In this document: positions 45,264-62,541 of the stretch, one piece after another
Numbering within the stretch: position 1 is the first letter of the stretch
Layout: every line of letters begins with the position of its first letter
Source: Opitutia bacterium
GTDB lineage: Bacteria; Verrucomicrobiota; Verrucomicrobiia; Opitutales; Opitutaceae
Direction of reading: 5' to 3'
NCBI GenBank assembly: GCA_947453695.1
Contig: CANGHW010000016.1
Coordinates: 1-64,000, forward strand
Length of the DNA stretch: 64,000 nucleotides
Translations under genes and position numbers: made by a program
The notes under the pieces: generated by a model
What the model saw: the letters and a program-made list of their open reading frames with translations, nothing else
The model's database searches: none
Told to the model about the DNA's origin: nothing

Positions 45264-46535
45264 ATGGCCATCCCCTCCGTCCTCGATCTCAAGATCGTCA
45301 AAAAATCCACGCAGAGCCTCGTCGAAGGCGAGCTCTCCGCTACCGGCGGCCTACTCCGCCTCGCTCCCGCCTGGGTGCCGCGCTCCTTCTTGCAGCCCGG
45401 CCTCCGCATCAAGCTCCACCCCGATGACACCTACGCCTACGGTCTGAACCGCGGCGGCATCGACGAGCGCTGGTTTGCCTCCACCACGCCCACGGCCAAC
45501 GAAGGCCGCGCCTGGGACGAGGGCCTCAACTACGTCGTCGTCGGCAACAAGAAGTTCACCCTCCAGCAAGCCGTCGCCGACACCGGCGCCACGCTCGTCG
45601 GCAAATCCATCTGGAAGAAATACGGCAAGTGGCCCGTCTACTCGAAGTTCTTCGATAACATGGGTCCGATCCCGCACCACATGCACCAGAGCGCCGCGCA
45701 GGCGAAGCTCGTCGGTCAGGAGGGCAAGCCCGAGTCCTACTACTTCCCGCCGCAGCACAACAACGTCGGCAACAACTTCCCCTACACGTTCATGGGCTTC
45801 GAGCCCGGCACGACGAAGGAGCAGGTCAAGCAGTGCATCCGCAACTGGAACAAGGGCGACAACGGCATCCTCGATCTCTCGAAGGCCTACCGCCTCAAGG
45901 TCGGCTCCGGCTGGCTCATCGATCCGTGCATCCTCCACGCCCCCGGTTCCCTCTGCACCTACGAGCCGCAGTGGGGCTCTGATGTCTTCGGCATGTATCA
46001 GAATCTCGTCGAGGGCCGCGAAGTGCCGTGGTCGCTCCTCGTGAAGGACATGCCCAAGTCCAAGCACAAGGACATCGACTTCATCGTCGACCAGCTCGAC
46101 TGGGAGAAGAACGTCGACCCGAACTTCAAGGACAACCACTACCTCGAGCCCGTCCCCGTCGCCGACACCCGCAGCGAGGGCTACGTCGACCGCTGGATCG
46201 TCTACGGCAAGGTCGATGGCGAGCAGCTCTTCACCGCCAAGGAGCTCACCGTCGATCCGGGCACCAAGTGCACGATCAAGGACACTGGCGCCTACGGCCT
46301 CATCTGCGTCCAGGGCTCCGGCAAGATCAACGGCCAGCCCCTCGTCAGCCCGAAGCTCATCCGCTTCCACGAGCTCACCGAGGACGAATACTTCTGCACC
46401 GAAGACGGCGCCAAGAACGGTGTCACCTTCGAGAACACGAGCGCCACCGAGCCCCTCGTCTGCCTCCGCTACTTCGGCCCCGAAGTAAATCCGACGGCCC
46501 CCGCTATGGGCGCGTATCGCAACAATAAGTTCTGA
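45264..46535 (+). CDS. Cupin-fold sugar isomerase-like protein
   Basis: This 423-residue cytoplasmic protein resembles phosphomannose-isomerase-like double cupins. The first cupin has the metal-site segment GPIPHHMHQSAAQ. Later come a PCILHAPGSLCTYEPQWGSDVF block, and a second cupin beginning near residue 310 (ELTVDPGTKCTIKDTGAYGLICVQGSGKING). No kinase or transporter accompanies it. Together with the neighbouring TIM-barrel and oxidoreductase genes it probably processes a sugar or keto-sugar. Its relation to true ManA is structural, and the substrate is open. It is followed by a strong intrinsic terminator. Confidence 0.72.
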   Translation: MAIPSVLDLKIVKKSTQSLVEGELSATGGLLRLAPAWVPRSFLQPGLRIKLHPDDTYAYGLNRGGIDERWFASTTPTANEGRAWDEGLNYVVVGNKKFTLQQAVADTGATLVGKSIWKKYGKWPVYSKFFDNMGPIPHHMHQSAAQAKLVGQEGKPESYYFPPQHNNVGNNFPYTFMGFEPGTTKEQVKQCIRNWNKGDNGILDLSKAYRLKVGSGWLIDPCILHAPGSLCTYEPQWGSDVFGMYQNLVEGREVPWSLLVKDMPKSKHKDIDFIVDQLDWEKNVDPNFKDNHYLEPVPVADTRSEGYVDRWIVYGKVDGEQLFTAKELTVDPGTKCTIKDTGAYGLICVQGSGKINGQPLVSPKLIRFHELTEDEYFCTEDGAKNGVTFENTSATEPLVCLRYFGPEVNPTAPAMGAYRNNKF

Positions 46536-46572: not shown

Positions 46573-46600
46573 GTGGGGCGGGCTTTACGCCCGCCATGCC
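46572..46600. repeat. REP-like palindrome (TGTGGGGCGGGCTTTACGCC type)
   Basis: GGGCGGGC and GCCCGCC arms around TTTAC. The same element occurs at 55076 and, slightly changed, inside rlmN (33670-33739). It produces an apparent upstream ATG (46596) for the next gene, which should not be used as the start. Confidence 0.85.
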
Positions 46601-46652
46601 TTTTTCTCCGTCAGCTCAACTTTCCTCTCTCAACCCTCAACTAGTCCCCAAC

Positions 46653-47690
46653 ATGCCCGCCAATAACTTCCCCAAACTACACAACGCCATGTGGCCCGGC
46701 CTCGTCGGCAAGGGCTCCCCCGGCGCGGAACCGTTCATCGAACTCGACACCATGCTCGACATGACCGCCAAGGCCGAAGTCGGCGGCGTGAAGTTCGACG
46801 GCGTCGATCTCTTCCTCTACAACCCGCACACCGACATCGATATTTCCGACGACGGCATCAAGGCCCTCGCCAACAAAATCAAATCCAAGGGCCTCGTCGT
46901 CGGTTCCGTCGTCGCCCCCGTGTGGTTCGACGCCTCCGCCGGCGGTGACGAAAAAGCCCGCGCCAACTTCGTCACCCACGTCCGCAAAGCCGTCCGCATC
47001 GCCGCCAAACTCCGCGAGCTCGGCGTCCGCCCCTACGGCATCGTCCGCATCGACAGCGCCACCGGCGTCACCGCGTGGGACAAGGACCCGAAGGGCACCA
47101 CCAAGCTCATCGCCCAGACTTTCCGCGAGTGCGGCAAGATCGCCAAAGACAACGGCGAGCGCCTCGCCGCCGAAGGTGAGATTTGCTGGGGCGGCATGCA
47201 TTCGTGGAAGAACATGGTCAACCTCCTCGAAGCGGTCGGCATGCCCAAGGTCGTCGGCTTCCAGGCCGACATGTCGCACACCCACCTCTACACGCTCGGC
47301 GCCAATGCCGAGGCGCACCGCATCGTGCCGAAAAAATATAACTACGAGCCCGCCGAGTTCCACAAGGCGATGGTCAAGCTCACCGACGCGCTCCGCCCGT
47401 GGACGATCGACTTCCACGTCGCGCAGAACGACGGCAGCACTTACGGCTCCGGCTCCCACGAGAAGACCGGCCGCCACTGTCTCGCCACCGATCCGAAGGG
47501 CAAACTCAACATCGCCCGCGACTCCGGCTACTGGCTGCGCGACGGCAAGGGCAAGGTCACCAAGAAGATGAAACACATCTGCTGGGACGGCTGCATGTTC
47601 TCCAACGACGTGCTCCTGAAGCAGCAGACGTGGAACGACATCCTCGCCGCCATGATCGAGGTCCGCAACAACCACGGCTGGGTCGGCTGA
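46653..47690 (+). CDS. Sugar isomerase/epimerase TIM-barrel protein
   Basis: This 345-residue protein of the xylose-isomerase-like TIM-barrel superfamily (sugar phosphate isomerase/epimerase) contains the barrel strands [22 protein letters not shown] and [14 protein letters not shown]. Metal-ligand-like acidic/His residues lie in [14 protein letters not shown] and [10 protein letters not shown]. Members of this group act as isomerases, epimerases or keto-sugar lyases. No signal peptide is present. The start at 46653 was chosen over 46596, whose ATG arises from a repeat. It is followed by the oxidoreductase gene after 143 bases holding a palindromic repeat. Confidence 0.82.
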
Positions 47691-47833: not shown

Positions 47834-48973
47834 ATGAAACCACTCAACATCGGCATGATCGGCTACGGCCTCATGGGCCGCGCCCACACCAACGCGTTCC
47901 GCCAAGTCAGCCAGTTCTTCAAACTCGAGCACCGCCCCGTTCTCAAAGCCGTCTGCGGCCGCGACGGCGTGAAGGCCGCCGAGTTCGCCGCCAACTGGGG
48001 CTACGAATCCGTCGAGACCGACTGGAAAGCCCTCATCGCGCGCCCCGACATCGACCTGATCGACATCGCCGCGACCAACAACGTCCACGCCGAGATCGCC
48101 ATCGCCGCCGCCAAGGCCGGCAAGATCGTCATGTGCGAGAAACCCCTCGGCATGAATCCCGCCGAGTCCCTCAAGATGGTCGCCGCCGTCGAGAAGGCCA
48201 AGGTGCCGAACATGGTCTGGTATAACTACCGCCGCGCCCCCGCCGTCACGCTCGCGAAGATGATCATCGACGAGGGCAAGCTCGGGAAAATCTTCCACTA
48301 CCGCGCGAAGTTCCTCCAGGACTGGACCATCAACGCCGAAGTCCCGCAGGGTGGCCCCGGCACGTGGCGCCTCGACGCCTCCGTCGCCGGCTCCGGCGTC
48401 ACCGGCGACTTGCTCGCGCACTGCATCGATACCGCGATGTGGCTCAACGGCTCGATCGATTCCGTCACCGGCATGACCGAGACGTTCGTGAAGGAGCGCA
48501 AGCACGCCCTCACCGGCAAGAAGCAGAAGGTCGGCATCGACGATGCCTCCGCCTTCCTCGCCCGCTTCAGCAACGGCTCCCTCGCGACCTTCGAGGCCAC
48601 CCGCTACGCTCGCGGCCACAAGGCCCTCTACACCCTCGAAATCAACGGCGAGCACGCCTCCCTCGCGTGGGATCTCCATGATCTCCACCGCCTGCAGTGG
48701 TTTGATCACCGCGATCCGAGCACGGTCCGCGGCTGGCGCTCCATCCACATCAGCGATGGCGACCAACCCTACATGAAGCACTGGTGGATCCCTGGCGTGC
48801 AGATCGGCTTCGAGCACACGTTCACCCACCAGGTCGCCGACTTCCTCGCCGGCATCGAGTCCGGCAAGCCCGCCGCGCCCACCTTCCGCGACGGTCTCGC
48901 CACCGACTACGTCACCGACGCAGTCCTCAAGTCCGCGAAGTCCGGCAAGTGGACCAACGTCAAGAAAGCCTGA
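47834..48973 (+). CDS. Gfo/Idh/MocA family NAD(P)-dependent oxidoreductase
   Basis: This 379-residue oxidoreductase of the glucose-fructose/inositol dehydrogenase family starts with the nucleotide-binding strand [15 protein letters not shown]. The typical EKPLG block is at [12 protein letters not shown], and the lysine of that motif is the expected catalytic residue. The C-terminal half is the open beta-sheet domain. No signal peptide is present, so it works in the cytoplasm. Members such as ThuB oxidise glycosides at C3 to 3-keto sugars or reduce them. The DUF1080 and ThuA neighbours make that role plausible. It is followed by a terminator. Confidence 0.93.
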
Positions 48974-49084: not shown

Positions 49085-52000
49085 ATGCTTTTCCGCGTCG
49101 CTTTCGTTTTCGCCCTCCTCGCCGGCTCGTTCCTCCGCGCCGCCGCGCCCACCAGCCTCGTGCTCAATCCCCCCGCCGGCGTCAAAGCCCAGGGCAAGCA
49201 CGTCGTCCTCCTCTCCGGCGACGAAGAGTATCGCAGCGAAGAGGCGCTGCCCATGCTCGCGAAGATCTTGAGCCAGCGCCACGGCTTCAAGACCACCGTC
49301 CTCTTCGCCCTCGATGCCGACGGCAGCATCAATCCCAACAACGGCAAGTCCCTCCCCGACTCCGCCGCCCTCGACACGGCCGACGTCATCATCCTGGCGC
49401 TCCGCTTCCGCGCCTGGCCCGACGACGCCATGCAGCGCTTCGAGGCCGCCTACAAGCGCGGCGTCCCGCTCATCGCCCTGCGCACCTCCACGCACGCTTT
49501 CAATTTCCCCGCCGGCTCCCCGTGGGCCGCCTACTCCTACAACGCCAAGGCCCCCTTCGCCGGCGGCTTCGGCAAACAGGTCCTCGGCGAGACTTGGGTC
49601 ACCCACTGGGGCAAACACAAGATCGAGGCCACCCGCGGCGTCATCGAAGCCTCTGCCGCCTCCGACCCGCTGCTCCGCGGCGTCACCGAGCTATTCGGCA
49701 ACAGCGATGTCTACGAAGCCGCTCCGCCCGCCGACGCCAAGATCCTCGCCCGCGGTCTCGTGCTCAAGGGCATGAACGCCTCCGACGCCCCCGCCGACTA
49801 CGCGAAGAAGACCGTCGCCAAGGTCGAGCAGCCCGTGAACTCCCCCGCGATGCCCATCGTCTGGACGCGCGCTTACAAGAACGACGCCGGCACCACTAAC
49901 AAGGTCCTCACCACCACCATGGGCGCCGCCACCGACCTCGAGAACGAGAGCCTCCGCCGCCTCGTCGTCAACGGTGTCTACTGGTCCCTCGGTCTCACCG
50001 TTCCGCCGAAGGCCGACGTCACCTACGTCGATCCCTATACGCCGCGCATGTATGGCTTCAACGGCTACCGCACTGGCCTCACCATCGCCGACTACGCCCT
50101 CGGCAAGACCGTCCCCGTCGGCGGCACCCTCCCGCCCCCCGCGCCCGCCCCGAAGAAACAAGCCGCGCCAAAATCCGCCTCTACCGCTACGTCCACCGTC
50201 GCCCCGAGCGTCGCCGCCGCTGTCACTCCGTCTCGGGCAGCGCCAGCCGCACTGAACGCCCCTGTCTCCCTCAACCCCGGCGAGCGCATCGCCATCGTCG
50301 GCAACACCCTCGCCGACCGCATGCAGCTCCACAGCTCGCTCGAGACGCTCCTCACCGCCAAGTTTCCCCAGCACAACCTCATCTTCCGCAACCTCGCCGC
50401 CGCCGGCGACGAGGTCGTCACCCGCTCCCGTTCCAAGGATTTCGGCACGCCCGATGAATGGCTCGCCAAGGTCCAGCCTTCCGTCGTCTTCGCCTTCTTC
50501 GGCTACAACGAATCCTTCGCCGGCCCCGACGGCCTCGCGAAATTCAAACAGGACCTTGAGGCCTATCTGAACAATGTCCGCACCAAGACCTACAACGGCG
50601 TCGCCGCCCCGCGCATCGTCCTCTTCTCCCCCATCGCCACCGAGGCCATGACCGGCACTGAGTTCGCCGTCCCGGCCGAGGCCAACCGCAACCTCGCCCT
50701 CTACTCCGCCGCGATGGCCGAGGTCGCCGGCGACAAGGCCGGCGTCACGTTCATCGATCTCTTCGCCCCGTCGACGAAACTCTACGCCGCCGCCGCCGCG
50801 CAGGGCCGCAAGCTCACCATCAACGGCATCCACCTCAGCGAGTCCGGCGACGCCGCCCTCGCCCCCGAGATCTTCAAGACCCTGATCGGCGAGTCCGCCC
50901 CGTCCCTCGACACCCCTGCCGCCCGCGAACTCCGCACCCTCATCAACGCGAAGAACGACTGGTGGCGCTCTCACTACCGCACCGTCGACGGCTACAACGT
51001 TTACGGCGACCGCTCCAAGATCGCCTACGAGTCCGTCAAGGATCAGCCCAAGATCACCAACACCCAGATCATGATGGAGGAGATGGCGCAGCGCGACACC
51101 CTCACCGCCAACGCCGAGCGCCGCGTCTGGGCCGCCGCCAAGGGTCAGCCCTACAACTCCGCCGACGATCTCCCGCTCCCGCCCGTCACTCCGTTCGGCA
51201 CCAACAAGCCCGGCCCCAATCCCGACGGCACCTACCCGTTTCTCACCCCGGAGCAGTCGATGGCCAAGATGAAGCTCCACCCCGGCCTCAAGGTTAACCT
51301 CTTCGCCAGCGAGCGCGAATTCCCCGAACTCGCGAAGCCGCTCCAGATGGCCTGGGACACCAAGGGCCGCCTCTGGGTCACCGTCTGGCCGAGCTATCCC
51401 GAACTCACTCCCACCGCCACGGTCAAGGACAAGGTCCTCATCCTCGAAGACACCGACGGCGACGGCAAAGCCGACAAGTGCACCACCTTCCTCGACGGCC
51501 TCAACTGCCCCACCGGTTTCCAGTTCTACAAGGACGGCATCCTCCTCATGCAGGCCCCCGACCTCTGGTTCGTCCGCGACACCGACGGCGACGGCAAGGC
51601 CGACTGGAAGGAGCGCGTCCTCATGGGCCTCGACTCCGCCGACTCCCACCACACCGCCAACTCCCTCGTCTACGAACCCGGCGGCGCCATCCTCCTCAGC
51701 GACGGCGTCTTCCACCGCACCCAGGTCGAGACCGCCTTCGGCCCCGTCCGCAACATCGACGGCGCCCTCTACCGCTACGAGCCCCTGACCGGCCGCTTCG
51801 AGACCTACGTCGCCTACAACTTCGCCAATCCCCACGGCCGCGCCTTCGACTACTGGGGCAACGACATCATCACCGATGCCACCGGCAATAACACCTACTT
51901 CGGCCCCGCCTTCTCCGGTCAGATCGACTACCCCGCGAAACACCCGCGCATGAAAACCCTCTGGGACCGCCCCTCGCGTCCCAGCGCCGGCAGCACGATC

Positions 52001-54178
52001 CTCACCAGCACGCACTTCCCCGAGGAGTTCTGGGGAAATTATCTCAACCCCAACGTCATCGGCTTCCAGGGCATCTTCCGCGTCAAACTCACCCAGGACG
52101 GCTCCGGCATTAAGGGCCTCCGCCAGACCGATGTTGTCCAGTCCACCGAGACCAACTTCCGCCCGATCGACACCTCCACCGGCCCCGACGGCGCCCTCTA
52201 TGTGATCGACTGGCACAACCCCCTCATCGGCCATCTCCAGAGCCACCTCCGTGATTCCAATCGCGACCACGTCCACGGCCGCATCTATCGCTTCACCTAC
52301 GAGGGCCGCCCGCTCGCCGTCCAACCCAAGATCGACGGCCAGCCCATTCCCGCCCTCCTCGAATTGCTCAAGCGCCCCGAAAACCAGATCCGCAACCTCG
52401 CCAAGATCGAGCTCGGCAAGCACCCGTCCTCCGCCGTCATCGCCGCCACCAAGAACTGGGTCGCCGGCCTCGACCAGAAATCCCCCGACTTCGCCCACCA
52501 CCTCACCGAAGCCCTCTGGCTCCATCAGTGGCACAACGTCGTCGACCTCGACCTGCTCAAGCGCGTCCTCGCCTCCCCTGAGCCGCAGGCCCGCGCCGCC
52601 GCCACCCGCGTGATTTCCTACTGGCGAGAACGCGTGCCCAACGCCCTCGCCCTCCTCCGCGAGCGCGCCGCCGATGATGATTCCCGCGTCCGCCTGCACG
52701 CCGCCCGCGCCGCGAGTTTCTTCCCGTCCCTCGATTCCGTCGAGGTCGCTCTCGCCGCCACGAAAAAGCCCATCGACTACTACCTCGACTACACGATCGG
52801 CGAAACCCTCCGCCAGCTCCGCCCGTTCTGGCGCAAGAGCATCGAGGAGGGCGGCAAGGTCGGCGGCGATCTCGCCAGCCTCCGCTACCTGCTCCGCAGC
52901 CTCAGCGTCGCCGAAATCCTGAAGATGACGCCCACGCCCGACGTGCTGGAAAATATCCTCAGTCGTTCGGGCGTCGCCGACACCGCCCGTGCCTCCGCCC
53001 TCACCGGCCTCGCCGAAGCGCGCAAGGCCACCAAGGTCAGCCTCCTCCTCGACGTCCTCAACTCCCCCGCCGAGGTCGACACCAAGGGCGTCGGCCGCCT
53101 CCTCGTCGCTCAACCCGCCGCCGATCTCCGCGCCCACCGCGACGCCCTGCTGAAGCTCGCGCTCGCCGACGCCGCCGAGGGCCGCTCCTTCGCCTGGGCC
53201 GCCATCGCCATCGCCGACGGCACCCTCGACACCGTCTGGACCGAAGCCGCCAAATCGCCGCTGTCCCACGCCAGCCTCCTCGGCGGCCTCCCGCTCATCC
53301 CCGACGTCGCCCTTCGCGCCACCGCCTACGATCGCGTCATGGCCATCCTCGCGCAGCCCGTCACCGAGATCCAGGGACCCGACCACATCGTCGCCGCCAT
53401 TCAACGCGACGCGATCCGCACCGCCGTCTCCACCAAGCGCGACCCGGAGAAAGTCTTCGCCGCCCTCAACGCCATGATCACCCGCGGCGACCAGGTCCCC
53501 ACCGCCGCCCAGGGCATCCGCGGGCTCCCGCGCACCGCGTGGACGGCCGACGCCACCACCCCCGCCGCCACCGCGCTCATCGCCTGGGCCGCCAAGGCCC
53601 ACCCGAGCGAGCGCACCAGCCGCGACTACACCGAGACCATCCAGATCGCCGACGACCTCGCCGGCTCCCTTCCGACCGACGCGGCTGCCCCGCTCCGCAG
53701 CAAACTCGCCACCCTCCGCGTCGCTGTCTTCGTCATTCGCACCGTCCACGAGCAGATGAAATACGACACTCCGCGTCTCGTCGTCGAAGCCGGCCGCGCC
53801 TTCGAAATCATCTTCGAGAACCCCGACGTCATGCCGCACAACCTCGTCGTCGTGCAGCCCGGCGCACGCCTGAAGGTCGGCGAATCCGCCCAGGAGCTCC
53901 CTGCCGGCCACACCGACCGCCTCGGCCGCGCCTGGGTCCCCGAGGACAAGGAGATCATCGCCGCCACCAAACTCCTCGAGCCGCTGCAGAGCGAGACCCT
54001 CAAGATCGCCGCCATCCGTAACGAGGGCGTCTACGAATACGTCTGCACCTTCCCCGGCCACTGGGCCGTAATGTTCGGCCAGCTCGTCGTCACCAAGGAC
54101 GTCGAGGCCTACCTCAAAGCCAATCCCCTCACCCCACCCGCCGCCGCCACCCCTGCCGCGACCACTCACAAACACTGA
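49085..54178 (+). CDS. Giant ThuA / SGNH / dehydrogenase-like propeller / HEAT / cupredoxin fusion, secreted
   Basis: This 1697-residue exported protein has a signal peptide (about 1-21). A ThuA domain covers about 35-330 (HVVLLSGDEEYRSEE, HWGKH). An Ala/Pro linker (350-397) leads to an SGNH-like domain (398-600) with FGYNES and GIHLSESGD. A PVC membrane-bound dehydrogenase-like propeller spans about 716-1080 (WDTKGRLWVTVWPSYPE, DTDGDGKADK). HEAT-like repeats run from about 1085 to 1520. A C-terminal cupredoxin (1546-1685) shows type-1 copper ligands MPHN, VCTFPGHW and VMFG. The copper domain occupies the place where related PVC proteins often carry a cytochrome c. The SGNH domain lacks a GDS serine (GNTLAD) and the usual DxxH aspartate (NGIH), so it may be non-catalytic. 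Oxidation of a glycoside with electrons passed to copper is my inference. Confidence 0.9.
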   Translation: MLFRVAFVFALLAGSFLRAAAPTSLVLNPPAGVKAQGKHVVLLSGDEEYRSEEALPMLAKILSQRHGFKTTVLFALDADGSINPNNGKSLPDSAALDTADVIILALRFRAWPDDAMQRFEAAYKRGVPLIALRTSTHAFNFPAGSPWAAYSYNAKAPFAGGFGKQVLGETWVTHWGKHKIEATRGVIEASAASDPLLRGVTELFGNSDVYEAAPPADAKILARGLVLKGMNASDAPADYAKKTVAKVEQPVNSPAMPIVWTRAYKNDAGTTNKVLTTTMGAATDLENESLRRLVVNGVYWSLGLTVPPKADVTYVDPYTPRMYGFNGYRTGLTIADYALGKTVPVGGTLPPPAPAPKKQAAPKSASTATSTVAPSVAAAVTPSRAAPAALNAPVSLNPGERIAIVGNTLADRMQLHSSLETLLTAKFPQHNLIFRNLAAAGDEVVTRSRSKDFGTPDEWLAKVQPSVVFAFFGYNESFAGPDGLAKFKQDLEAYLNNVRTKTYNGVAAPRIVLFSPIATEAMTGTEFAVPAEANRNLALYSAAMAEVAGDKAGVTFIDLFAPSTKLYAAAAAQGRKLTINGIHLSESGDAALAPEIFKTLIGESAPSLDTPAARELRTLINAKNDWWRSHYRTVDGYNVYGDRSKIAYESVKDQPKITNTQIMMEEMAQRDTLTANAERRVWAAAKGQPYNSADDLPLPPVTPFGTNKPGPNPDGTYPFLTPEQSMAKMKLHPGLKVNLFASEREFPELAKPLQMAWDTKGRLWVTVWPSYPELTPTATVKDKVLILEDTDGDGKADKCTTFLDGLNCPTGFQFYKDGILLMQAPDLWFVRDTDGDGKADWKERVLMGLDSADSHHTANSLVYEPGGAILLSDGVFHRTQVETAFGPVRNIDGALYRYEPLTGRFETYVAYNFANPHGRAFDYWGNDIITDATGNNTYFGPAFSGQIDYPAKHPRMKTLWDRPSRPSAGSTILTSTHFPEEFWGNYLNPNVIGFQGIFRVKLTQDGSGIKGLRQTDVVQSTETNFRPIDTSTGPDGALYVIDWHNPLIGHLQSHLRDSNRDHVHGRIYRFTYEGRPLAVQPKIDGQPIPALLELLKRPENQIRNLAKIELGKHPSSAVIAATKNWVAGLDQKSPDFAHHLTEALWLHQWHNVVDLDLLKRVLASPEPQARAAATRVISYWRERVPNALALLRERAADDDSRVRLHAARAASFFPSLDSVEVALAATKKPIDYYLDYTIGETLRQLRPFWRKSIEEGGKVGGDLASLRYLLRSLSVAEILKMTPTPDVLENILSRSGVADTARASALTGLAEARKATKVSLLLDVLNSPAEVDTKGVGRLLVAQPAADLRAHRDALLKLALADAAEGRSFAWAAIAIADGTLDTVWTEAAKSPLSHASLLGGLPLIPDVALRATAYDRVMAILAQPVTEIQGPDHIVAAIQRDAIRTAVSTKRDPEKVFAALNAMITRGDQVPTAAQGIRGLPRTAWTADATTPAATALIAWAAKAHPSERTSRDYTETIQIADDLAGSLPTDAAAPLRSKLATLRVAVFVIRTVHEQMKYDTPRLVVEAGRAFEIIFENPDVMPHNLVVVQPGARLKVGESAQELPAGHTDRLGRAWVPEDKEIIAATKLLEPLQSETLKIAAIRNEGVYEYVCTFPGHWAVMFGQLVVTKDVEAYLKANPLTPPAAATPAATTHKH

Positions 54179-54257: not shown

Positions 54258-55010
54258 ATGAAAACCCGCCTCACCTCGCTCACCCTCGCGCTCCTCGCGC
54301 TTTCCACTTCGGCCTTCGCCGCCGCCCCCGCCGGCTTCAAGGAACTCTTCAACGGCAAAGACCTGACCGGCTGGAAGGGCCTCGATTTCTGGTCCGTCAA
54401 GAACGGCGCCATCGTCGGCCAGACCACCGCCGAAAAGCCCACCAAGGGAAACACCTTCCTCGTCTATCAAGGCGGTGAGCCCGCCAACTTTGAACTGCGC
54501 GTCAGCTTCCGCCTCACCGCCCAAAACGACAAATCCTGGGGCAACTCCGGCGTCCAATACCGCAGCAAGGTCGTCGACGCCGCCGCCTTCGTCATCGCCG
54601 GCTACCAGGCCGACATCGATTCGCCGTTCAAATACACCGGCATGCTCTACGAGGAAAAAGGCCGCGGCATCCTCATGAACAGCGGTGAAAAGATCCGCAT
54701 CGGCGAGACCACGATGGTCGAGGACACCAAGAAGAAGGGCGCCACCAAGAAAAAGACTTCTGTCGAGAAACTCCCCGGCGCCACGCCCACCGAAGCCATC
54801 GCCGCCGCCTACAAACTCGGCGAGTGGAACGAGCTCGTGGTCACCGCCAACGGCAACCAACTCCGCCACACCGTGAACGGCGTCGTCACCGCCGAGGTCA
54901 CCGACACCGATGCTTCCATCGCCAAGTCCGGCGTCATCGCCCTCCAGCTCCACGCCGGCCAGCCCATGACCATTGAGTTCAAAAACATCTACCTGAAGAC
55001 CCTCCCGTAA
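54258..55010 (+). CDS. Secreted DUF1080 3-keto-disaccharide hydrolase-like protein
   Basis: This 250-residue concanavalin-like protein has a signal peptide (MKTRLTSLTLALLALSTSAFA). Family segments are ELFNGKDLTGWKGLDFWSVKNGAIVG, the GNSGVQYRSK strand, GYQADIDSPFKYTGMLYEEKGRGIL and GEWNELVVTANGNQLRHTVNG. There is a lysine-rich insertion (KKKGATKKK) around residues 158-167 that is not general to the family. Characterised relatives hydrolyse or eliminate 3-keto-glucosides. Its place right after the giant dehydrogenase-like gene supports a role in cleaving an oxidised glycoside. It probably acts in the periplasm. Confidence 0.93.
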   Translation: MKTRLTSLTLALLALSTSAFAAAPAGFKELFNGKDLTGWKGLDFWSVKNGAIVGQTTAEKPTKGNTFLVYQGGEPANFELRVSFRLTAQNDKSWGNSGVQYRSKVVDAAAFVIAGYQADIDSPFKYTGMLYEEKGRGILMNSGEKIRIGETTMVEDTKKKGATKKKTSVEKLPGATPTEAIAAAYKLGEWNELVVTANGNQLRHTVNGVVTAEVTDTDASIAKSGVIALQLHAGQPMTIEFKNIYLKTLP

Positions 55011-55237: not shown

Positions 55238-58207
55238 ATGAAACTACCCCGCCTCATCGCCTCTGCCGCCCTCGCCGCCCCGGCGTTTTCGTTGGCCGCC
55301 ACTCTCACCGGCAACGTCTCCAACCAAGCCACCGGCAACCTCCTTGAGGGTGCCCGCCTTGAGGTGCCTGCCCTCGGCCTCTCCGCCCTAACCGACGAGA
55401 CCGGCCGCTTCGTCCTCGCCGCCCTGCCCGCCGGCTCCCACGAAATCGTCGCCACCTACATTGGCCTCGACCCCGTGCGCGTCCGGATCGACGTCCCCTC
55501 CGACCAAGCCACCATCACCCGGAATTTCGATCTCACCACCGGCATCTACAAACTTGAGGTCTTCAAAGTCGCCGGCGAACGCGAGGGCGGTGCCGCCGCC
55601 ATCACCGCCCAGCGCAACGCCGACAACGTCAAGAACGTCGCCGCCACCGACTCCTTCGGCAATCTGCCCAACATGAACGCCGGCGAGGTCGCCATCCGTC
55701 TCCCCGGCATCTACGGCGAACTCGACGCCGGCGGAAATCTGTCCGGCTTCACGGTCCGAGGCATGACCTCCGGCCTCAACACCGTCACCATGGACGGCGC
55801 CATGCTCACCGGCCAGGGCGGCGCCGGGCGCTCCATTTTCGTCAACAACATCACCGGCGCCATGTTCGACCAGGTCGAACTCATCAAGGGCCACACACCC
55901 GACAAGGGCGCCGATTCCCTCGGCGGCACCATCAACTTCAAGAGCCGCTCGCCGCTCTCCATGCGAGAGAAGCGCCGCATCACCTACACCCTATCCGCCC
56001 GCATCGCACCGTCGTTCACCCAGCAAATCCCGCTCCGCGAACAGCGCCGCACCCACGGCCTCGCCTCGCTCGGCTACCAGGAGGTCTTCGACGCCTTCGG
56101 CGGCCGCCGCAACCTCGGCGTCTCCGTCAGTCTCTTCAACTCCGAGACCGCCCTCGGTTGGTTCACTTCCCAGCGCGACTACCAGAACGCCGCCTCCCAG
56201 CCCAACTACCTCTGGGACTACCGCACCGGCGACGTCTACAATCACCGCCGTCAGAAAAACATCACCACCAAGGTCGACTACCGCCTTACTCCTGCGACGA
56301 AACTCTCCTTCCTCGCCAGCTACATCGATCACTCGGAAATTTTCCGCCGCCAATACGACACCCGCGCCTTCACCAACCAGGCGGTCTACAATCCCGCCGT
56401 CGCCACGACCGCCGTCAATGGCATCGAGCCCGGCTACACCGACCGCGTCACCAGCGTGCGCCCCGTCGCCGCCTCCACCATCGACATCACGATGACCGGC
56501 CCGAACAACTTCTTCAATCGCCTGCGCCGCGGCGATATCGGCGCCGAGCACAACTGGGGCCCCTTCCAGCTCGAATACAACGCCCGCTACACCCAGACGC
56601 ACATCAACATCGGCAACGGCGAGGGCGGCGTCCTTGTCAACCGCCTCACCGGCGTCGGCTGGACCCTCGACCGCCGCGAATCCGACCTCTTCCCCAAGTT
56701 CACGCAAAACGGCGGCCCCGATTTCACCAACCCCGCGAACTACCGCCCGTCGCCCACCAACGCCCTCTCCAACCAAAACAACACGCAGCTCCACGAGGTC
56801 ACCGAGCTCCGCGCCGATGCCCGCTACACCTTGCCGCTCGCGTTCCCCGTCATGCTCAAGAGCGGCTTCGTCTGGCGCGAACAAGTGGTCGGCGCGACGA
56901 GCGCCTCGCGCCGATGGAACTACATTGGCACCGGCCCGCTCCGCGCCGAGCCTTCGATCTTGCTGATGGACCAGGTGAAAACCGGTCGCGTCCTCCCGCA
57001 GTGGGAGACGTCGAATTTCATCCGCGCCCGCGAGGTCATCGATCCGTCGATCTGGCGCGAAGACTTCTATTTCCGCGAGACCACCAAATACACCAGCTTC
57101 GTCGACGTCACCGAAACCGTCTCTGCGGCCTACGCCATGGCCCAAGGCAAGCTCGGTAAAGATGGTTTCCTCGCCCGCACCGGCTTTCTCGGCGGCGTCC
57201 GTCTCGAACGCACCGAAAACCAGGCCTTCGGCTGGGTGCGCGCCCGCCGTCTCAGCGGCACCGCTGCCACCGCCAGCGAAGCCGCCGCCGTCGCCGCCGC
57301 GCAGGTCGACTACGCCAACAACCGCCGCACCACCGAGGGCGACTACACGAAACCATTCCCGAGCCTCCACCTCTCCCACGACGTCACCGCCAATCTCAAG
57401 ACCCGTCTGAGCTGGTCCACGAGTTTTGGCCGGCCAGCCTTCACCAACCTCACGCCCGGCGAGACGCCCAACGAGGCCAACGCCGCCCTCGGCGGCAAGC
57501 CGTCGCTCACGATCAACAATCCCGCCCTCCTTCCGCAGACCTCGCGCAATTGGGACGCCACGGTCGAGTATTACTTCGAGCCCGTCGGCAACCTGAGCGT
57601 CGGCTGGTTCCACAAGACCATCCGCGACTACATCGTCAGCGGCATCGAGTCCGGCACCATCGGCACGGGCAACGACAACGGCTTCAACGGCGAGTATCCC
57701 GGCTGGACCATCCTCACCACCGCCAACGCCGGCACCGCGATCGTCCAGGGCTGGGAGTTCAGCTACCAGCAACAGTTCACGTTTCTCCCCGGCGTGCTGA
57801 AGGGCCTGAGCGGCATGCTCAACTACACCCTGCTCGACACCCACGGCAACTTCACCGGCGCCACCAATCTCACCAGCGGCCAGGTGGCCGGTTTCGTCCC
57901 ACGCACGGCCAACGCCAGCCTCTCTTGGCGCTACCGCAACTTCAGCACCCGCCTCCTCGCCAACTACGCGAGCACCTTCCTCACCAGCTACGGCGGCGCC
58001 CAGCCGTGGCGGAATCTCTACCGCGTGAAACGCAACCTCCTCAACCTCGGCTTCTCCTACCAGGTCCGCCCCACCCTCACCGTCACGCTCGACATCGATA
58101 ACCTCACCAACGTCCCGCAAAAACGCTACCGCGGCACCGCCGATCAGGTGGAGTATTTCAACTACCCCGGCACCACCTTCACCGTCGGCCTCAACGGCCG
58201 GTTCTGA
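55238..58207 (+). CDS. TonB-dependent receptor with N-terminal carboxypeptidase-like domain
   Basis: This 989-residue receptor has a signal peptide (to LAAT), followed by a CarboxypepD_reg-like beta-sandwich (about 24-105, [23 protein letters not shown]). A plug with [31 protein letters not shown] follows, and a barrel ends in ...FTVGLNGRF. The N-terminal domain is typical of SusC-like receptors, but there is no SusD partner anywhere in the locus. It is 10 bases upstream of a sulfatase gene, so a sulfated saccharide is a reasonable ligand guess. The gene at 59.6 kb is a close paralogue. Confidence 0.95.
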   Translation: MKLPRLIASAALAAPAFSLAATLTGNVSNQATGNLLEGARLEVPALGLSALTDETGRFVLAALPAGSHEIVATYIGLDPVRVRIDVPSDQATITRNFDLTTGIYKLEVFKVAGEREGGAAAITAQRNADNVKNVAATDSFGNLPNMNAGEVAIRLPGIYGELDAGGNLSGFTVRGMTSGLNTVTMDGAMLTGQGGAGRSIFVNNITGAMFDQVELIKGHTPDKGADSLGGTINFKSRSPLSMREKRRITYTLSARIAPSFTQQIPLREQRRTHGLASLGYQEVFDAFGGRRNLGVSVSLFNSETALGWFTSQRDYQNAASQPNYLWDYRTGDVYNHRRQKNITTKVDYRLTPATKLSFLASYIDHSEIFRRQYDTRAFTNQAVYNPAVATTAVNGIEPGYTDRVTSVRPVAASTIDITMTGPNNFFNRLRRGDIGAEHNWGPFQLEYNARYTQTHINIGNGEGGVLVNRLTGVGWTLDRRESDLFPKFTQNGGPDFTNPANYRPSPTNALSNQNNTQLHEVTELRADARYTLPLAFPVMLKSGFVWREQVVGATSASRRWNYIGTGPLRAEPSILLMDQVKTGRVLPQWETSNFIRAREVIDPSIWREDFYFRETTKYTSFVDVTETVSAAYAMAQGKLGKDGFLARTGFLGGVRLERTENQAFGWVRARRLSGTAATASEAAAVAAAQVDYANNRRTTEGDYTKPFPSLHLSHDVTANLKTRLSWSTSFGRPAFTNLTPGETPNEANAALGGKPSLTINNPALLPQTSRNWDATVEYYFEPVGNLSVGWFHKTIRDYIVSGIESGTIGTGNDNGFNGEYPGWTILTTANAGTAIVQGWEFSYQQQFTFLPGVLKGLSGMLNYTLLDTHGNFTGATNLTSGQVAGFVPRTANASLSWRYRNFSTRLLANYASTFLTSYGGAQPWRNLYRVKRNLLNLGFSYQVRPTLTVTLDIDNLTNVPQKRYRGTADQVEYFNYPGTTFTVGLNGRF

Positions 58208-58216
58208 TCCCCTCCC

Positions 58217-59602
58217 ATGCGCCGCCTTCCCCTTCTCTCTCTTTCCCTCCTTCTAACTTTAGTCGCGACCGCCCCCTTCGCGGCCAAAGCCGCCGCCGCC
58301 GAGCCACCGCTCAACATCGTCGTCCTCCTCGCCGACGACTGGCGCTACGACACCCTCGGCATCGCCGGCAACCCCGTCGTCAAAACCCCGAACCTAGACC
58401 AACTCGCCCGCGAGGGCGTGCGCTTCACGCAAAACTGCGTGACGACGTCCGTCTGCTGGGTCAGCCGGGCCAACCTCTTCACCGGCCAGTGGCTCTCGCG
58501 TAACGGCACCGCCTCGCAGGGCGGCGAATTCACCACGCCGTGGGCCGAGACCTATCCCGGCCTGCTGCGTGCCCGCGGCTACTTCACCGGTCACGTCGGC
58601 AAGTGGCACAACGGCAAATTCCCCGCCGAGCAGTTCGACTACGGCGCCGGCCGCATCACGCCAATGCGCCACTGGCTCAAGCAACCCGACGGCACCGAAA
58701 TTCACGTCACGAAGAAGAACGAAAACGACGCGATGGAGTTTCTCCGCACGCGCCCAAAGGAAAAACCCTTCGTCCTCACGCTCGCCTTCATCGCCACGCA
58801 CGCCGAAGACCAAAATCCGAAGCAATACCTCCCGCAGCCTGAGAGCATGGCGCTTTACCAGGACGTCACCGTGCCCGTGCCCAAGACCGCGACCGACGAC
58901 CATTTCCGTCGCCTGCCGCCGTTCATCGCCAATGACCAGAACGAGGGCCGCAACCGCTGGAAGTGGCGCTTCGACACTCCGGCCCGCTACCAGGAATACA
59001 TGAAGAATTACTACCGCATGGCCACCGAGCTCGATGCGGTCTGCGGCCGACTCCTTGCCGAACTCAAGGCCCAGGGCGTGCTCGATCGCACGCTCATCAT
59101 CTTCACCGGCGACAACGGCTACTTCCACGCCGAGCACGGCCTCGCCGATAAATGGTATCCCTATCAGGAGAGCATCCGCGTGCCACTCATCGTGCGCGAT
59201 CCCCGCCTGCCCGCCGCGAAACGCGGCACCACGAACGAGAACTTCACCCTCAACGTCGATCTCGCGCCTACCATCCTCGCCGCCACCGGCACGCCCGCGC
59301 CCGCCCGCATGCAGGGCCGCGACATCGCACCGCTTTACCTCGCCGCCACTCCGCCGAAATGGCGCGATGAGTTTTTCTACGAGCACGCCACCGTCCGAAA
59401 CATCAACTTCATCCCGTCGTCCGAGGCCCTCGTGCGCAAGGACGTGAAGTATATCTGGTGGCCCGATTTCAAACACGAGGAGCTCTTCGATCTCCGCGCC
59501 GACCCCCTCGAGGAACACAATCTCGCCGCCGACCCCGCTCGCGCCACCCAACTCGCCGCCCTCCGCACCCGTTTCGCTGAACTCAAAGCCGCCGCCAAAT
59601 GA
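58217..59602 (+). CDS. Exported sulfatase with CWVSR maturation motif
   Basis: This 461-residue S1-family sulfatase has a signal peptide (to AAEP, about residue 31). The N-terminal metal site is [14 protein letters not shown]. The formylglycine motif appears as CWVSR (Cys80) in [15 protein letters not shown], with valine where most sulfatases have proline. Other marks are GKWHNGKFP and [20 protein letters not shown]. Substitutions at this position occur in some sulfatases, so activity is not excluded. It lies 10 bases after one receptor gene, and its stop overlaps the next receptor start (ATGA). The three are thus translationally coupled and probably act on one sulfated ligand. Confidence 0.92.
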
Positions 59603-62541
59603 AAATCCCACGCTCACCCCAGCGTATCCCCACCTCGTTCGCGCTCCCGCTCGCTGTCTCGCTTTCCCTCGTTCTGTCCCTCTCCTCCGTCCGCGCCGCC
59701 ACCGTCTCCGGCAATATCGCCAACCTCGCCACGGGCAATCTCCTCGAGGGCGCCCGCGTCGACGTTCCCGCCCTCGGCCTTTCGGCGCTGACCGACAACA
59801 CCGGCCGCTACGTCCTGCCGTCGCTCCCTGCCGGCACGCACGAACTTGTCGTCACCTATGTCGGACTCGACGCCGCCCGCGCCACCGTGACCGTCAGCGA
59901 CACCGCCGCCGCCACCCGCAATTTCGACCTCACCAGCGCCGTCTACAAACTCGACGCCTTCAAGGTCACCGGCGAACGGGAGGGCGGGGCCGCCGCGATC
60001 ACCGCGCAGCGCAATGCCGACAACGTGAAGAACATCGTCGCGATGGATTCATTCGGGAATTTGCCCAATATGAACGCCGCCGAGGTCGCGATCCGCCTCC
60101 CCGGTGTCGCCGGCAATCCCTCCGACGAAAACCTCATGGACGGTTTGACCATCCGCGGCATCGGCCCGGGCCTCAACACCATCACCCTCGATGGCTCGCC
60201 CCTCACGAGTCAGGGCGCCCTCACCCGCAGCACGAACATGAACAACCTCACCGGTTCCATGTTCGACCAGATGGAGCTCACCAAGGGCCACACGCCCGAC
60301 AAGGAAGCCGGCTCCATCGGCGGCACGATCAATCTGAAGAGCCGCTCCCCGCTCTCCATGCGCGAGCGCCGGCGTATCACCTACAGCGCCGGCGTGCGCT
60401 ACGCCCCGCCGTTCACCGAGCAAACGCCCACGCGCGAGAAACACCGCGCCCACCCGCTCTTCAATGTCGGCTGGCAGGAGCTCTTCGATGTCTTCGGCGG
60501 CGAGCGCAACCTCGGCCTCTCGCTCAACGCGTTCTACTCCGAAAACGCGGTCGGCGGCTTCCGCACCACGCGCGATTTCGAAAATACCACCGCCCAGCCC
60601 GCCTACCTCTGGGACTACCGCACCTGGGATAACTACAACAACCGCAAGCAGGCCAGCATCAGCCTCAAGGCCGACTACCGCCTATCTCCTTCCACCAAGC
60701 TCTCACTCAACACTGTCGCGAGTGACGCCGTCGAAACCTTCCGCCGCCAATACGAAACGCGCGCCTTCACGACCCAACAGGTCGGCACCACAGGCACCGC
60801 CGGCATTCTCCCCGGTTACACCGACCGCATCACTGAGGTCCGCGCCGCCGTCGGCTCGACCATCGACCAGACGACCACCGGCCCAGGCAACTTCGCCAAC
60901 CGGATGCGCCGCCTCGACCTCGGTGCCGAGCACGTCTTCGGTGCCCTGCAACTCGACTACAACGCCATCTACACCCAGACCAACATCAACGGCGGTGGCG
61001 GCGGCCGCGGCGGCATTTTGGTCAACCGCATCACCTCGGTCGGTTGGCGCCTTGATCGCACCGACTCCGATCTTTACCCGCGCTTCACCCAGACCGCCGG
61101 CCCCGATTTCACCAATCCCGCGAACTACCGGCCGACCACTTACAACAATTCGATTCTCCAAAACGACGACCAGATCAAGGAGGCCCGCGCCAACGCCCGC
61201 TACACCCTGCCGACGTCGTTTCCATTCTCGCTCAAATCCGGCGCCCTGTGGCGACAGCACTACGCCGACGCCCAGAGCGTCGCCCGCCGCTGGAACTACG
61301 CCGGCACCACCGCACTGCCCGCTGATCCTTCGATCATCACCTTCGACTCCGTGAAGACGGGCCGCCGCATTCCGCAGTGGGAAGCGATCCAATTCTTTGC
61401 CGACCGCCAGCCGATCACGCCGTCGCTCTGGACCGAAGACCGCTACTTCTACGAGCAGAACAAATACACGGCCAACCGCGCCGTCACCGAGACCGTCACC
61501 GCCGGTTACGCGATGGCCCAAGCCCGCTTCGGGCGCACGGGCTTCATCGCCGGCGTCCGCACCGAACGCACTGAGACCTCCAGCTGGGGCTGGGTCCGAG
61601 CCCGCACCGGCAGCACCGTCGCCCAGCAGACCGCCGATCCCGTCGGCTCCGCTACCCGCGACTACGCTGGCACGCTGCGCAAACTCGACGGCAGCTACAC
61701 GAAGTCCTTCCCCAGCGCCCACCTCACCCACGACCTCACCTCGAATCTCAAGGCCCGCCTGAGTTGGTCGACCAGCTTCGGCCGTCCGCCCCTCAACAAC
61801 GCCCTCCCCAACGAAACCATCTCCGAGGCCAACCAAACCCTCACGGTCAATAACCCGGCCCTGCTCCCGCAAAACGCCGCCACGTGGGACGCCACGCTCG
61901 AGTATTACTTCGAGCCCGTGGGCACGGTCTCGATCGGTTGGTTTAACAAGACCATCACCGACTACATCGTCACCGGCACCAACGCCGGCACGATCGGCAA
62001 CGGCACCGACAATGGCTACAGCGGCGAATACGCCGGCTGGACGCGCCTCACCTCCTCCAACGCCGGCACCGCGAAAGTTAACGGCTGGGAATTCAACTAC
62101 CAGCAGCAGTTCACGTTTCTCTCCGGCGTGCTCAAGGGCTTCGGCGCCTCCGCCAACTACACGCTCATCAACACTAGCGGAAACTTCGGTGGCACCACCT
62201 CGCGCAGCACCAACGAGGTCCCTGGCTTTATCCCCCGCACGGGCAACGCCACGCTTTCGTGGCGCTACCATAAATTCAGCACGCGCATTCTCTACAATTT
62301 CACCGGCAGCTACATCACCGCGTTCACCGCCGCCACACCGGGCCGCAATCTTTACCGCTTCAACTACGCCACGGTAAACGCCGGCATCGCCTACCAGGTC
62401 CGCCCCAACCTCGCGCTCACCCTCGACGCCGCCAACCTCACCAACGAGCCTCAGGCGTTCTACCGCGGCGTCCGTTCCCAGATGCAGAACACCATTCTGA
62501 ACGGCACGACCCTCACCTTCGGCGTCAACGGCCGCTTCTGA
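59599..62541 (+). CDS. TonB-dependent receptor, paralogue of the 55.2 kb receptor
   Basis: This 980-residue receptor has the same domain order as the gene at 55.2 kb: signal peptide, carboxypeptidase-like domain ([23 protein letters not shown]), plug ([31 protein letters not shown]) and barrel ending in FGVNGRF. The plug and N-terminal domain are nearly alignable residue by residue, while the barrel loops are divergent, for instance GGGGRGG near residue 470. The start overlaps the sulfatase stop. The pair suggests duplication followed by ligand specialisation. Confidence 0.95.

Follow-up and report, generated by a model that had tools for sequence, protein, structure and literature searches.

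Gene organization and domain architecture

The window, i.e. the whole stretch of 64,000 nucleotides that was analysed, carries on its forward strand a gene (49085..54178) coding for a protein of 1697 amino acids that is conserved in the genus. In one intact open reading frame it joins, in this order, a ThuA-like domain, an SGNH-like domain, a six-bladed beta-propeller (DUF7133), a HEAT domain and an auracyanin-like cupredoxin, preceded by a signal peptide read by eye at approximately residues 1-21 (MLFRVAFVFALLAGSFLRAAA). Matches above the Pfam cut-offs were obtained for DUF7133 (residues 722-936 and a second stretch, 3.8e-72, 244.2 bits against a cut-off of 27), Lipase_GDSL_2 (residues 421-590, 2.8e-10), HEAT_2 (residues 1157-1234, 5.7e-07) and Copper-bind (PF00127, residues 1555-1669, 36.7 bits against 21.2), and the NCBIfam model TIGR02604 reaches 209.1 bits (cut-off 122.2). 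ThuA (PF06283) matches residues 44-300 at 2.5e-05 and 25.1 bits, below its gathering score of 33.4. Two structure models of the fusion, one of them spanning residues 641-1697 with a pLDDT of 90.4, back each domain by its fold, including the helices of a HEAT-type solenoid at residues ~1088-1545 (52346..53719, forward strand). The combination of these five domains in a single secreted chain, proposed in the sequence-only reading, is therefore borne out by Pfam, NCBIfam and the model folds, in the case of ThuA by fold only. An open frame of 1494 amino acids runs antisense to the gene (49691-54175, minus strand) and was regarded as a shadow ORF; homology was confined to the plus-strand frame.

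Upstream on the same strand lie genes coding for a conserved protein of 423 amino acids with no Pfam match (45264..46535), a xylose-isomerase-like TIM barrel (AP_endonuc_2, 46596..47690) and an oxidoreductase of the Gfo/Idh/MocA family identified by Pfam and NCBIfam (47834..48973), whose nearest model is levoglucosan dehydrogenase, below cut-off. Immediately downstream is a DUF1080 protein (PF06439, 3-keto-disaccharide hydrolase, 1.5e-38; 54258..55010, forward strand) with a signal peptide recognized by eye, followed by a large TonB receptor (55238-58207), a sulfatase (58217-59602) and a second large TonB receptor (59599-62541). The position of the sulfatase between the two receptors suggests that the cluster may handle sulfated glycans.

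The other eight genus genomes all contain DNA coding for the cupredoxin of the orthologue (79-86% identity), and the chain from ThuA to cupredoxin is uninterrupted in four of them and in a fifth whose 5' end is cut by the contig, which rules out a frameshift or assembly artefact as the source of the fusion. Two further orthologues lie at contig ends and start within the SGNH domain or shortly before the propeller. The orthologue of the last genome (L072, G004:C976) is split into two overlapping ORFs, which reflects either a genuine frameshift or a fault of the assembly.

A tethered type-1 copper domain

The C-terminal domain (residues ~1548-1673; 53726..54103, forward strand) is recognized as a type-1 copper cupredoxin of the auracyanin/azurin type by the Pfam score given above, by phmmer (9.6e-10 to auracyanin 6kol) and by its modelled fold (TM 0.86 to auracyanins 6kol and 2aan, rmsd 1.6-1.8). 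The His-Cys-His-Met ligand set is complete: His1585 (53837..53839) and, in the loop C1654-TFPG-H1659-WAV-M1663 (54044..54073, both on the forward strand), Cys1654, His1659 and Met1663 are conserved without exception in the 13 aligned relatives. A chance match is ruled out by these scores, the conserved ligands and the fold. The loop has the Cys-x4-His-x3-Met spacing of azurin (CTFPGHSALM), whereas the azurin equivalog TIGR02695 gives 34.1 bits against a cut-off of 105.1, so that the domain is better described as auracyanin-like than as a true azurin. It differs from both in being a tethered domain of a 1697-residue chain. The type-1 copper domain that had been read from the sequence at the C-terminus thus holds up in structure prediction and domain search, with its full set of ligands.

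ThuA-like and SGNH-like domains

The ThuA-like domain (residues ~31-320; 49175..50044, forward strand) resembles 4e5v (Z 17.7) and 1t0b (Z 16.8) in the structure model, and was found fused in the protein's own clade and in one Bacteroidota example (L141). The following domain (residues ~395-606; 50267..50902, forward strand) adopts an SGNH/GDSL fold close to the esterases BT4096 and Axe2 (Z 18-21) and has no conserved nucleophile. G-N-T replaces G-D-S, and residue 408, at the position of the catalytic Ser, is Thr in the fusion and Thr, Ala, Gly or Ser in 12, 10, 3 and 2 of 27 aligned rows, respectively. The Asp of block V is replaced by Asn580, a substitution shared by 24 of the 27 rows, the other three having Asp. 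The name SGNH is therefore valid for the fold, whereas the missing conserved Ser and the replacement of the block V Asp make ordinary esterase activity unlikely, and an active esterase is not supported. It is accordingly doubtful that the substrate handling suggested earlier for the fusion would involve the SGNH domain as an active hydrolase.

The propeller and its possible cofactor

The propeller (DUF7133/TIGR02604, residues ~730-1075; 51272..52309, forward strand), with its DxDGDGxAD loops, finds its best solved fold match with VIA in the PQQ sugar dehydrogenase 3a9g (Z 23.7, rmsd 2.9, 287 aligned residues), and the top matches of this method are PQQ sugar dehydrogenases (3a9g, 7cgz and 2ism, Z 22.7-23.7). 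Hydrolases of the SMP30/DFPase type score nearly as high by fold (Z 21-22 against 23.7), and plain Foldseek, unlike VIA, ranked a luciferin-regenerating enzyme and NHL/Pizza propellers above the PQQ enzymes. A sequence search of the propeller profile against the PDB gave mostly short repeat matches, with 2g8s at E 0.008.

An hhalign comparison with the YliI family (probability 95.8) aligned the catalytic His and Asn. Within the pair His855-His856 (51647..51652, forward strand), it is His856 that is paired with YliI His147, which we take to be the catalytic His of PQQ aldose dehydrogenases, although His855 is the better conserved (35 of 38 aligned rows, against 27 of 38 for His856). Asn915 (37/38) and Arg1026 (26/38) align with YliI residues presumed to contact PQQ. 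The Arg preceding Asn915 is Ala in the fusion and variable in the family, and of the two Arg residues in the RxR pair the second is missing. PQQ as the cofactor of the propeller is thus possible from the aligned residues. PqqE was found above cut-off in none of the nine genus genomes, so that a propeller using PQQ would depend on scavenging it, unless its cofactor is a different one.

These similarities raise the possibility of a PQQ-type aldose (C1) dehydrogenase that would yield aldonolactones with copper as acceptor, outside any 3-keto pathway. The nearest solved folds are indeed PQQ aldose/glucose dehydrogenases (Z 20.8-23.7 for E. coli YliI/Asd, 3a9g and 2ism), and the aligned His and Asn agree with such an enzyme. 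In contrast to these dehydrogenases, the Arg contacts of the fusion are partly lost, its carrier is fused, no Pfam match to GSDH was found on the protein and the genus yielded no PqqE, while the conserved DUF1080 and Gfo/Idh/MocA neighbours suit keto-glycosides better. We consider oxidation at C1 unlikely.

Copper and heme carriers in the source genome

In the source genome (G000), 33 DUF7133 and 26 DUF1080 matches were identified within 6.4 Mb. The C-terminal ends of 28 DUF7133 ORFs were read: a single CxxCH motif is present in 19, four end in a cupredoxin and none has both; of the other five, four are cut off at the 3' end and one (C239) has neither carrier in its own frame. The cupredoxin-bearing ORFs are the fusion and three others on contigs C74, C162 and C7, and a further ORF (C105) has the SGNH-propeller-HEAT layout of the fusion but ends with a CxxCH. 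On contig C239 (L066, 3046-5753), a cupredoxin-bearing ORF overlaps the propeller ORF in a different frame, the cupredoxin being upstream of the propeller.

The fusion shares the propeller-HEAT-carrier layout of the DUF7133/TIGR02604 family, which carries the product name "PVC-type heme-binding CxxCH protein", and differs from it by its cupredoxin end, its extra ThuA domain and the lack of a CxxCH, the motif for which the family is named and which a motif scan did not find within the 1697 residues. Like the fusion, L111, L117 and L141 have no heme motif, pass TIGR02604 and would receive this product name. Since the propeller by itself suffices to pass the TIGR02604 cut-off, copper versions would be misnamed automatically, and a systematic naming error for heme-less chains is likely from the sequence scores.

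Distribution of the copper version across phyla

Outside the genus, at least 585 candidate stretches related to the cupredoxin were found, which rules out that it is unique to this locus. The best 80 were classified; they were picked by a cupredoxin query, so that their counts are silent on the share of heme-only chains elsewhere. They come from Verrucomicrobiota, Bacteroidota, Planctomycetota, Hydrogenedentota and Gemmatimonadota, and the cupredoxin is joined to the propeller in 68 of them: 55 are propeller-cupredoxin chains and 13 are propeller-cupredoxin-heme chains, the rest being seven cupredoxin-heme chains without propeller and five cupredoxins that are alone or truncated. The 13 chains with both carriers belong to Planctomycetota and Hydrogenedentota and place copper and heme in series, the CxxCH sitting approximately 65-80 residues after the copper Cys; the heme domain of one of them (L139) passes TIGR02603. 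Strict exclusivity of copper and heme is consequently true of the C-termini read in the source genome and fails in Planctomycetota. The earlier view that a cupredoxin stands where related PVC proteins usually have heme is correct for the source genome; copper is no oddity among the best 80 loci, and 13 of the 68 fused chains carry the heme motif too, so that "instead of" is too simple.

The seven cupredoxin-heme chains without propeller (L127-L129, L131, L132, L136 and L153) are approximately 620-680 amino acids long, and three of them (L127, L128 and L153) are closely preceded by an SGNH-propeller stretch. In another locus (L077:2393-7365), a ThuA-SGNH-propeller-HEAT ORF is followed directly by a separate cupredoxin ORF of 152 amino acids, as expected of a redox partner.

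In a propeller tree built with a quick method, with several long branches and with heme-only rows all from the source genome, the carrier labels need eight changes against a least possible number of two, which indicates that carriers were exchanged or lost. The presence of a heme motif together with copper in 13 chains argues for copper as an exchangeable, sometimes serial, carrier, and this arrangement, with the CxxCH found in the same position in 19 paralogues, fits an electron-carrier role.

Conserved neighbourhood and related sugar oxidation systems

The order TIM barrel-Gfo/Idh/MocA-fusion-DUF1080 is repeated in those genomes of the genus with contigs long enough to show it, as well as in three loci outside the genus (L109, L110 and L117). 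The gene for the 423-residue protein without a Pfam match is a conserved neighbour too. The secreted DUF1080 protein is a likely partner of the fusion, and the conserved operon points to a 3-keto-glycoside pathway. Five Gluconate_2-dh3 matches in the source genome indicate that other sugar dehydrogenases may feed this pathway.

It could also be the Gfo/Idh/MocA protein that oxidises the sugar, the fusion being a binding scaffold at the cell surface whose copper domain senses or buffers copper. This would agree with the dedicated NAD-type oxidoreductase adjoining the fusion and with the missing nucleophile of the SGNH domain, a sign that one or more modules of the chain are no longer catalytic in the customary way. 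No signal peptide was seen by eye on the Gfo/Idh/MocA protein, which probably places it in another compartment, and the swap with heme suits electron transfer better than copper sensing; we regard a scaffold as very improbable.

In Caulobacter, a DUF1080 protein was proposed as a 3'-ketolactose hydrolase working with the lactose 3-dehydrogenase LacABC, both adjoin sugar epimerases and a reductase, and BT2157 of the DUF1080 family is a 3-ketotrehalose hydrolase (PMC9007349). The LacABC system resembles the present locus, as we interpret it, in its extracytoplasmic sugar oxidation beside a secreted DUF1080 protein, epimerases and a reductase (PMC9007349), and differs from it in that LacABC is a three-component membrane-bound enzyme whereas the fusion is a single propeller-copper chain. 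An Agrobacterium operon that cleaves 3-keto-glycosides encodes two oxidoreductases, one of them a glycoside dehydrogenase, together with a pair of sugar isomerases/epimerases of the TIM-barrel type (PMC10628242).

The only biochemical assay of a family relative that we found in the open-access literature concerns Lac161_ORF7 (AGW45552), a verrucomicrobial TIGR02604-HEAT-heme protein that was purified and released glucose from lactose, and which its authors read as a novel beta-galactosidase, i.e. as a hydrolase (PMC5342196). It resembles the fusion as a verrucomicrobial TIGR02604-HEAT protein with a carrier domain, and differs in having heme for copper and in that ThuA and SGNH domains were not reported. 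Together with the closeness of SMP30/DFPase folds, this report speaks for a redox-independent glycosidase or lactonase, in which the propeller would hydrolyse or eliminate the glycoside and the cupredoxin or heme would be structural or metal-storing. A glucose-release assay cannot, however, tell hydrolysis from oxidation followed by cleavage, and a position occupied repeatedly by either of two unrelated redox domains, together with chains that hold both, all with intact ligands, is hard to explain without electron transfer; a catalyst of this kind therefore appears improbable to us. No description of the copper version was found in the open-access literature, and a search for ThuA, 3-keto and Verrucomicrobia gave nothing relevant.

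Proposed function and significance

The reading that we tentatively prefer, rating the scheme as a whole somewhat short of an even chance, is a secreted or periplasmic glycoside dehydrogenase linked to electron transport, with a tethered copper acceptor. The DUF7133 propeller would oxidise a glycoside, the C3 position of a hexose unit being the likeliest site, and pass electrons singly to the type-1 copper domain, which would deliver them to the respiratory chain. A c-type heme would take the place of the copper domain in most paralogues of the source genome, and in planctomycete relatives copper and heme are arranged in series. The ThuA-like and degenerate SGNH domains may serve to hold or orient the saccharide, either as such or in its keto form. 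Cleavage of the 3-keto-glycoside would fall to the secreted DUF1080 protein encoded alongside, and conversion of the keto-sugar, inside the cell, to the Gfo/Idh/MocA and TIM-barrel enzymes. Within this scheme the domain content, the ligands of the copper site, the swapping of carriers in the family and the recurring gene order are observed, whereas the redox catalysis, the substrate, attack at C3, the cofactor and the path of the electrons are inferred.

A broader extension, which we consider possible though rather doubtful, is that these proteins, from Verrucomicrobiota, Planctomycetota, Bacteroidota and further groups, represent a novel kind of respiratory glycoside 3-dehydrogenase that the label "heme-binding" has concealed. 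The beta-propeller would be its scaffold, and the tethered carrier could be copper, heme or copper followed by heme. The copper fusion itself belongs, as a variant, to a known family of which little has been characterised; it is widespread, easily misnamed and no singular curiosity. DUF7133 is highly multiplied in the source genome, yet a single glucose-release assay is the only biochemistry found for the family. Judging by the copper versions, the C-terminal domain would be an electron carrier that can be exchanged, and this makes a redox role of the DUF7133 family directly testable.
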